DNA of 36,432 nt from NCBI GenBank assembly GCA_026196105.1, contig JAPHRK010000043.1, positions 1 through 36,432 on the forward strand, written 5' to 3'. This document shows positions 19,650 to 20,326 of this stretch, in pieces. The notes beneath the pieces were generated by a model. It had not been told where the DNA came from, searched no databases, and saw only the letters and a list, made by a program, of their open reading frames with translations. Source of the DNA: Rhodospirillales bacterium. Lineage in GTDB: Bacteria > Pseudomonadota > Alphaproteobacteria > Rhodospirillales > JAPHRK01. The position numbers were made by a program, and so were the translations under genes. Position 1 is the first letter of the stretch. The number at the start of each line of letters is the position of its first letter.

Positions 19650-19692
19650 TGTGATGACCATCACAGCTATGTACACATGACCCAGTCATAGT
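19650..19692 (+). promoter_or_regulatory. CRP-type class II promoter for the candidate small RNA
   Basis: TGTGAT-GACC-ATCACA at 19650-19665 is a perfect match to the CRP consensus half-sites with a 4-base centre. A -10 element, CATAGT at 19687-19692, starts 21 bases after it. With initiation near 19699 the site centre is at -41.5, the classic class II activator position. No good -35 hexamer is present, as expected for an activator-dependent promoter. The same geometry recurs at 34050-34092. Confidence 0.7.
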
Positions 19693-19698
19693 GATCGT

Positions 19699-19853
19699 GG
19701 GTGAACGCTTGTTCACCTAGGGATTAACGAAAAGGAGAAATCAGGCGTTAAGTCTGTGGGAGACTACTAAGACTTTCTGACTGGTCCTTCTTTCTGTTAC
19801 TTCCCTTCCCTCAAGAGCAAACTTATAGGCCGTCTTCGGACGGCCTTTTTTTT
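19699..19853 (+). ncRNA. Candidate CRP-activated small RNA, about 155 nt
   Basis: The 355-base gap between the CRP-family gene and divK holds a complete transcription unit without an ORF. A CRP-type promoter predicts a start near G19699. A perfect 7-bp hairpin sits at the very 5' end (GGTGAAC 19700-19706, loop GCTT, GTTCACC 19711-19717), and a strong UUCG-loop terminator ends it. Between them are a purine-rich GAAAAGGAGAAA stretch (about 19729-19740), two mutually exclusive small hairpins around AGTCT/AGACT (about 19754-19775), and a long pyrimidine-rich single-stranded tract (about 19780-19812) that could base-pair with Shine-Dalgarno regions. I do not recognise a known RNA family. The alternative is a long 3' UTR of the upstream gene. 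Confidence 0.55.
19827..19853 (+). terminator. Strong intrinsic terminator with UUCG loop
   Basis: AGGCCGTC (19827-19834), loop TTCG, GACGGCCT (19839-19846), followed by an unbroken T-run to 19853. It ends the candidate small RNA and would also stop read-through from the CRP-family gene before divK. Confidence 0.95.
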
Positions 19854-19918
19854 GCCTGGAAATTAAATCACATCCTCCCCTACATATTTGACTTCAACAG
19901 ATGAATAATCCATCATGT

Positions 19919-19960: not shown

Positions 19961-20326
19961 ATGGCCAAAACCATTTTGATTGTTGAAGATAACGAGCTGA
20001 ACATGAAGCTTTTTAATGATCTTCTTCAAGCTAATGGTTATGAAACCCTACAGACTAAAGATGGTCGCGAGGCTATGGGTTTAGCCAGAGATAATCACCC
20101 TGATCTGATTTTAATGGATATTCAGTTACCTGAGATTTCCGGGTTAGATTTGACCAAAATGATTAAAGCCGATGATGACCTCAAAGAGATCCCCGTGATT
20201 GCTGTAACCGCCTTTGCCATGAAGGGCGATGAAGAAAAAATCCGCGAAGGAGGCTGTGATGGCTATATTGCTAAGCCAATCTCTGTCCCAGATTTTCTGA
20301 CAACCGTTAATAAGTTCCTAGCTTAA
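19961..20326 (+). CDS. divK: DivK-like single-domain response regulator
   Basis: 121 residues consisting of one receiver domain and no output domain. The acidic pocket is E9/D10, the phospho-acceptor is D53 ([10 protein letters not shown]), the switch residue is the Thr in AVTAFAM, and the conserved Lys lies in IAKPIS. DivK in Caulobacter connects the PleC and DivJ kinases to DivL and CckA and so to CtrA activity. Sequence and length match that group, and the divK-rpmG neighbourhood is common in alphaproteobacteria. GAGGAAAG ends a few bases before the ATG. Its usual partner pleD does not follow; rpmG is convergent instead. Function in cell-cycle control is inferred from the family. Confidence 0.9.

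Follow-up and report, generated by a model that had tools for sequence, protein, structure and literature searches.

Small RNAs (sRNAs) controlled by CRP are well known in gammaproteobacteria: CyaR of enterobacteria is a stand-alone, CRP-activated sRNA, and Spot 42 encodes a peptide. Passages of one published account (PMC8672173) name CyaR as CRP-activated, report VcdRP, AzuCR, and Spot 42 as CRP-repressed, and present VcdRP and AzuCR as CRP-controlled RNAs that both encode a small protein and carry a base-pairing part. A second system for comparison is the alphaR8 family (RF00519; suhB/MmgR/SisA), represented by MmgR in Sinorhizobium and SisA-D in Caulobacter, which excerpts of PMC12559287 portray as short RNAs with a C-rich, single-stranded, anti-Shine-Dalgarno-like core that has a hairpin on one side and an intrinsic terminator on the other, with a carbon-related context and an adjoining N-formylglutamate amidohydrolase gene; in the Caulobacter RNA SisA, the single-stranded UUUCCUCCCU binds mRNA leaders. 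Among the matches listed from the open-licence PMC literature, no CRP-controlled sRNA was found for Rhodospirillales; PMC7685610, which concerns Azospirillum sRNAs, contains no word beginning with crp, and in PMC3927594 such words appear in the references only.

The present study analysed a 36,432-nt stretch of a Rhodospirillales genome (GenBank assembly GCA_026196105.1, contig JAPHRK010000043.1; hereafter the window), in which a first-pass annotation had proposed a CRP-activated sRNA behind a CRP-family gene. We conclude, with a probability of about 0.78, that 19699-19853 is a stand-alone sRNA gene activated by the CRP-type protein encoded upstream via a class II site, and that its product is a member of a CRP-linked Rhodospirillales RNA family with a shared 3' module. 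The sRNA gene is well supported and the mechanism is an ordinary one. The RNA family is not in Rfam and was not found in the open-licence PMC literature, among the matches listed; a search of that literature with the motif in DNA letters (13-mer) did not find it, and with the motif in RNA letters two plant papers were among the matches listed.

The window RNA resembles the alphaR8 RNAs of those excerpts in its short length, in the character of its core and the placement of that core between hairpin and intrinsic terminator, and in its carbon-related context, but differs from them in the core itself (UCCCUCAAGAG in place of UUUCCUCCCU), in its predicted CRP class II promoter, and in its neighbours, which are crp and divK (PMC12559287). 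Most likely it acts in the manner of an alphaR8 sRNA but is not itself one. With CyaR it shares a predicted activation by CRP, a stand-alone gene, and a presumed dependence on Hfq, the gene for which is encoded in the window's genome; unlike CyaR, it belongs to other bacteria and has another sequence and another seed, and CyaR was not among the Rfam matches of the locus even at E-values up to 10. Its class II spacing predicts activation and it has no ORF, in contrast to VcdRP, AzuCR, and Spot 42, for which the excerpts report repression (PMC8672173). ORF-bearing relatives of the locus may nonetheless join a small protein to a base-pairing part, as VcdRP and AzuCR do.

The locus and its predicted CRP-dependent promoter

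The RNA gene lies in a gap of 355 bp between the CRP-type gene and the divK-like gene (Table 1). The regulator has the three characters by which a CRP protein was recognized: a cNMP-binding domain and a Crp helix-turn-helix, both identified by Pfam, and a RETVxR recognition helix, in which R192, E193, T194, V195, and R197 are invariant across 21 aligned orthologues. The role of these residues in the recognition helix is known from E. coli CRP, and E. coli CAP is one of the best solved relatives of the window protein. Orthologues occur across Rhodospirillales at up to 65% identity, and a CRP-type protein match was obtained for all but one of 150 genomes from the order. A divK-like gene is found downstream of crp in the same orientation in 72 of 131 distinct crp loci, within the sequence compared, and an element similar to divK's own promoter-like TTTGACT...CATCAT is present in 41 of 69 crp-divK intergenic regions, against 1 in the reversed-sequence control.

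Table 1 Features of the CRP-sRNA-divK locus, in window coordinates
Feature	Position	Strand	Basis
CRP-type regulator gene, 233 aa	18904..19605	+	Pfam PF00027, PF13545, PF00325
Perfect symmetric CRP site TGTGATGACCATCACA, centred near -41.5 relative to predicted start	19650..19665	+	Read directly
-10 element CATAGT, exactly 21 nt past CRP site (class II spacing)	19687..19692	+	Read directly
Predicted sRNA, about 155 nt, no ATG	19699..19853	+	Fold z -4.43; frames checked; start inferred from -10
5' hairpin of eight pairs (one of them G-U) with GCUU loop	19699..19718	+	Fold and pair probabilities; window only
Long imperfect rod, purine-rich 5' arm (with AAGGAG) pairing with pyrimidine-rich 3' arm	19719..19806	+	Minimum-free-energy fold and pair probabilities, single sequence
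Conserved single-stranded module UCCCUCAAGAGCAAACU, proposed seed	19807..19823	+	Unpaired probability 0.58-1.0; recurs behind CRP sites
Intrinsic terminator with 8-bp stem, UUCG loop, and U run	19827..19853	+	Terminator scan; stem-loop 19827-19846
divK promoter-like element TTTGACT...CATCAT, separate, beyond terminator	19887..19916	+	Sequence scan
divK-like single-domain response regulator	19961..20326	+	Pfam PF00072

The perfect CRP site and the -10 element 21 bases past it, both named in the first-pass annotation, are present in the window as described, the site beginning 45 nt past the stop codon of the CRP-type gene. In class II CRP promoters the site is centred near -41.5, which is also where the window site falls relative to G19699, the RNA start predicted from the -10 element. 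This spacing predicts activation by CRP, and we infer that the CRP-type protein binds the site. The perfect pattern TGTGAN6TCACA occurs seven times in the 3.9-Mb genome, the reversed pattern not once, and at five of the seven a -10-like hexamer ([CT]A...T) stands exactly 21 nt past the site on one strand or the other. The sequence behind crp was surveyed in relatives using 170 fetched loci, of which 131 were distinct and 129 had 300 nt of downstream sequence. A CRP site with at most one mismatch was found within these 300 nt in 48 of the 129 loci (23 perfect), compared to 1 of 129 in the reversed control (0 perfect) and 2 of 125 in the following 300 nt; when 320 nt were scored, the count was 49 of 131. 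At the sites behind crp, a -10-like hexamer occurs at offset 21 in 39 of 55 cases and in roughly 1.5 cases at each other offset.

Other perfect CRP sites of the genome also have class II spacing (L179, L181, L182), and the genes behind them encode a flagellin-like protein, an RTX/cadherin-like protein, and a probably exported protein for which a Pfam match was absent. Another structured RNA lies behind a perfect CRP site at L177 (1310-1475, minus strand, within G000:C17:26745-26955), with TATATT 21 nt past the site; it has no Rfam match and no DNA relative among 59 genomes, and its fold (z -6.30) consists of a 14-bp closing stem enclosing three hairpins whose loops contain or adjoin C-rich stretches.

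A predicted structured RNA and its 3' module

The fold of 19699-19853 has a predicted energy of -58.9 kcal/mol (z -4.43), which none of 200 shuffles equalled. The hairpin at the predicted 5' end, which the first-pass annotation had put at 7 bp, has eight pairs in this fold, and the strong UUCG terminator with its U run was found where it had been placed. The absence of an ORF from the RNA body was likewise borne out: there is no ATG in 19699-19853, and the three GTG/TTG frames encode just 3-8 residues. The window RNA is an ORF-less form and lacks the translated small ORF of the dual-function CRP RNAs. A further proposal, that the pyrimidine-rich tract could pair with Shine-Dalgarno sequences, fared less well, the tract being predicted to pair with the purine-rich tract in the rod, which has its AAGGAG stretch at 19732-19737. 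Because the pyrimidine tract is predicted to be paired and 19807-19823 to be mostly unpaired, the likely pairing region is the free 17-nt UCCCUCAAGAGCAAACU behind it. In the modelled fold, the window RNA most likely offers a single-stranded, anti-Shine-Dalgarno-like seed.

A lack of conservation in relatives, which the first-pass annotation had named as grounds for refuting its reading, did not refute it as far as the CRP site, the module, and the terminator are concerned, since these recur in relatives; the 5' hairpin and rod of the window RNA, however, were not recovered in a DNA search of 59 relatives. That search, conducted with the whole RNA, gave matches in three relatives, at the 3' end only, and one of the three (G022) is without the exact motif. 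The family is defined by its 3' module, a single-stranded UCCCUCAAGAG-N(1-5)-ACU that is followed at once by an intrinsic terminator, and the window RNA has both TCCCTCAAGAG-N(1-5)-ACT directly before its terminator and an upstream CRP site with a -10 element at about 21 nt. Searched with the pattern TCCCTCAAGAGN{1,5}ACT, the module turned up in 92 of the 297 genomes sampled from the order, compared to 16 for the reversed control; in a class-wide sample of 385, it was found in 17 of 380 genomes outside the order, which is at chance level because the control was found in 14 of 380.

To these searches we added a scoring of 99 distinct motif places, which comprise the loci from the pattern search, 50 further regions, and the crp loci. 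A CRP site (at most one mismatch, within 320 nt upstream) was present at 89 of the 99 (74 perfect; reversed control, 1), a terminator at 91, and a terminator together with a CRP site at 85. For 58 of the 89 site-bearing places a -10-like hexamer lies at 21 nt, and for several others at 20. The linkage of motif and CRP site constitutes independent evidence, since the CRP site was absent from the search pattern. Ten motif places have no such site; four of these are also without a terminator and look like chance occurrences, one is cut by a contig end, and L090, L093, L277, L278, and L279 have terminators and look like real RNAs. With class II geometry at the genomic sites (5/7) and behind crp (39/55), and with the module behind CRP sites at 89/99 places, a CRP-activated sRNA is the best reading of the sequence, as the first-pass annotation had it. 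Its suggestion that the RNA had moved with its regulator is not simply so, given a CRP-type protein in 149/150 genomes and a module that adjoins crp in some genomes and lies elsewhere in others.

Thirty of the motif places came as loci, and in 28 of them the CRP site lies 73-84 nt upstream. With L200, which has no site, and L218, which lies at a contig edge, left out, 28 compact RNAs made up an alignment (A3), from which a covariance model (R1) was built with the window left out. R1 matched the window RNA with a score of 43.4 bits (E-value 2.5e-8 in 91 kb), and its next match across the whole window genome scored 23.9 bits, bearing in mind that the model leans toward the window locus, whose own motif served to collect the family. 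The match is partial: where compact members have a short 5' hairpin, the window has the base of its longer rod. When R1 was run on the window and 20 chosen loci, the motif-bearing ones scored 16.2-48.6 bits; among loci without the full motif, L033 scored 23.6, L041 15.9, and L030 11.6 bits, and L015 and L051 gave nothing, so that scores are weak or nil for L041, L030, L015, and L051, which are ORF-bearing, motif-less loci. Within A3, 10 of 14 pairs have changes on both sides (7/7 in the terminator, 3/7 in the 5' hairpin), and the covariation score of 0.379 compares with 0.174 in shuffles and was reached by none of 500, a margin to be read with the caution that related sequences can surpass such shuffles even without structure. 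One of the five covariation measures, further pair types, was not above the shuffles (102/500).

Small ORFs behind crp in relatives

A profile of small ORFs (A2) matched 31 of 131 crp loci and none on the opposite strand. A CRP site accompanies the ORF at 29 of the 31, and 80 of the 131 have neither CRP site nor small ORF; this association is partly built in, since A2 was made mostly from site-bearing loci. At L026, L038, L041, L058, L102, and other crp loci, a hydrophobic ORF of about 32 residues sits under a CRP site. Thirty-one ORFs were read out, including that of L023, which the profile did not match, and 29 of these are 29-33 residues long and two are 47. For six non-overlapping pairs of close ORFs the pooled pN/pS was 0.24, from 46.8 changes at 143.7 synonymous sites and 34.2 changes at 435.3 non-synonymous sites. 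The pair L023-L034, with 47-residue ORFs, had a pN/pS of 0.88 and was left out of the pool, its inclusion shifting the pooled value to about 0.32; the other eight pairs (0.06-0.37) reuse these sequences or ones related to them. Five of the 25 small peptides were scanned, and none of the five matched a Pfam or NCBIfam model.

In L026 and L038, the ORF and the 3' motif occur in the same RNA. Loci with the motif but without an ORF include the window locus, L010, those of Caenispirillum salinarum (L141) and C. bisanense (L148), and those of one genus in which crp is followed by two tandem CRP-linked RNAs (L064, L069, L072, L073, L076, L080). Profile A2 detected no small peptide at the window locus, and none was detected in the window genome by a search that had no positive control of its own, the same alignment having found 31 loci when used as a profile. 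This split between coding and non-coding RNAs behind crp is notable, and genomes with and without the small ORF make it possible to study the gain or loss of the coding part in a dual-function RNA. Since the crp-proximal version of some relatives codes for a hydrophobic peptide some 32 residues long, the crp locus may represent an ancient dual-function RNA that survives in the window genome as its RNA part only. The RNA is open to testing because named cultured species (Caenispirillum) have it.

Alternative readings and a proposed mechanism

The RNA might be an alphaR8 sibling that gained a CRP promoter rather than a member of a separate family. At the gathering score, Rfam found tRNA only in the window and no family at the sRNA locus, and among the sub-threshold matches RF00519 had the best E-value (27.2 bits, compared to a cut-off of 41 bits), with scores of 25-26 bits in L216, L203, and L087. 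The order of hairpin, C-rich single strand, and Rho-independent terminator is the same in both, many compact relatives contain UCCUCCCU, and no RF00519 match in the window genome passes the cut-off, those elsewhere in it reaching 32.6 and 31.5 bits. Membership of the window RNA in RF00519 was nevertheless rejected, as its score falls under the cut-off and UUUCCUCCCU, the 10-mer core of alphaR8, is absent from 19699-19853. RF00519 genes, moreover, stand at other places, occurring over the cut-off in 27 of 60 genomes searched, and G003, G008, G009, G024, G034, G049, G052, and G056 have such a gene along with the module at another place, which leaves a sibling relationship unlikely. Sub-threshold Rfam matches to Ysr49 and others were also rejected; they rest largely on the terminator. 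We consider it more doubtful still that the RNA forms the 3' untranslated end of crp, serving as the crp terminator and perhaps processed into a 3'-UTR sRNA, and not an independent gene. It does begin 94 nt past the crp stop on the same strand, with no terminator between them in the scan, but its -10 element stands at the exact class II distance from a perfect CRP site, and in many genomes the same module lies away from crp with a CRP site of its own.

Decay is another possible origin, in which the peptide ORF was lost at the window locus and the leftover transcript is functionless. The peptide is present at 31/131 crp loci and was undetected at the window locus or in its genome (the genome search lacking its own positive control), and AAGGAG persists in the rod, but the motif, terminator, CRP site, and -10 element are all intact, the fold is much stronger than those of the shuffles, and the same module recurs in compact RNAs that show covariation; we rate a remnant as improbable, by a little more than the crp tail. 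The CRP site could also act on crp itself or on divK, the transcript being incidental, as the site sits between both genes and CRP autoregulation is common. This seems very improbable for a site that is downstream of crp with a spacing that indicates a start at about 19699, and with divK having its own promoter-like element beyond the terminator.

For the preferred reading, a CRP-activated sRNA gene with a 3' seed, we propose that a rise in cyclic nucleotide (cAMP or cGMP) would cause the CRP protein to activate the sRNA gene, that Hfq would bind the U-tailed terminator of the sRNA, and that UCCCUC would pair with GAGGGA-like ribosome-binding sites and repress the mRNAs, as alphaR8 sRNAs do with UUUCCUCCCU. 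When duplex energies of the module were calculated for 28 start regions in the window, crp ranked first at -16.9 kcal/mol, with a duplex of 14 bp over GGGGAA just before the crp start. As a target, crp was not beyond chance, 90 of 1324 window stretches of 55 nt doing equally well, and in six loci for which the module and upstream sequence were compared, crp exceeded all controls in L026 only; an autoregulatory loop of the sRNA on crp is accordingly not claimed, the duplex energies being within chance.

The 5' body of the RNAs differs between genera, being a hairpin, a rod, or a small ORF. We would give even odds to a broader interpretation, namely that an undescribed branch of the Rhodospirillales CRP regulon consists of modular RNAs in which a 3' seed-terminator module under class II CRP promoters is joined to swappable 5' parts (hairpin, rod, possibly a knotted fold, and an ORF for a hydrophobic peptide of about 32 residues), and that the crp-locus RNA has switched between dual-function messenger and pure sRNA, the window representing the pure-RNA state. 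The module, being present in 92/297 sampled genomes and tied to CRP at 89/99 places, provides a concrete entry to cyclic-nucleotide control in Rhodospirillales.

In the genus whose crp is followed by tandem RNAs, two crossing helices can be drawn for the second RNA, in which its 5' end meets an internal stretch. The nested fold returned by the program does not contain the crossing helix, and covariation was seen in 3/5 pairs of the inner hairpin, 1/9 of one long helix, and 0 of the crossing helix; a pseudoknot is possible in this modelled structure. At L266 and L270, the compact motif RNA occurs in two tandem copies about 150 nt apart, with a CRP site for each.
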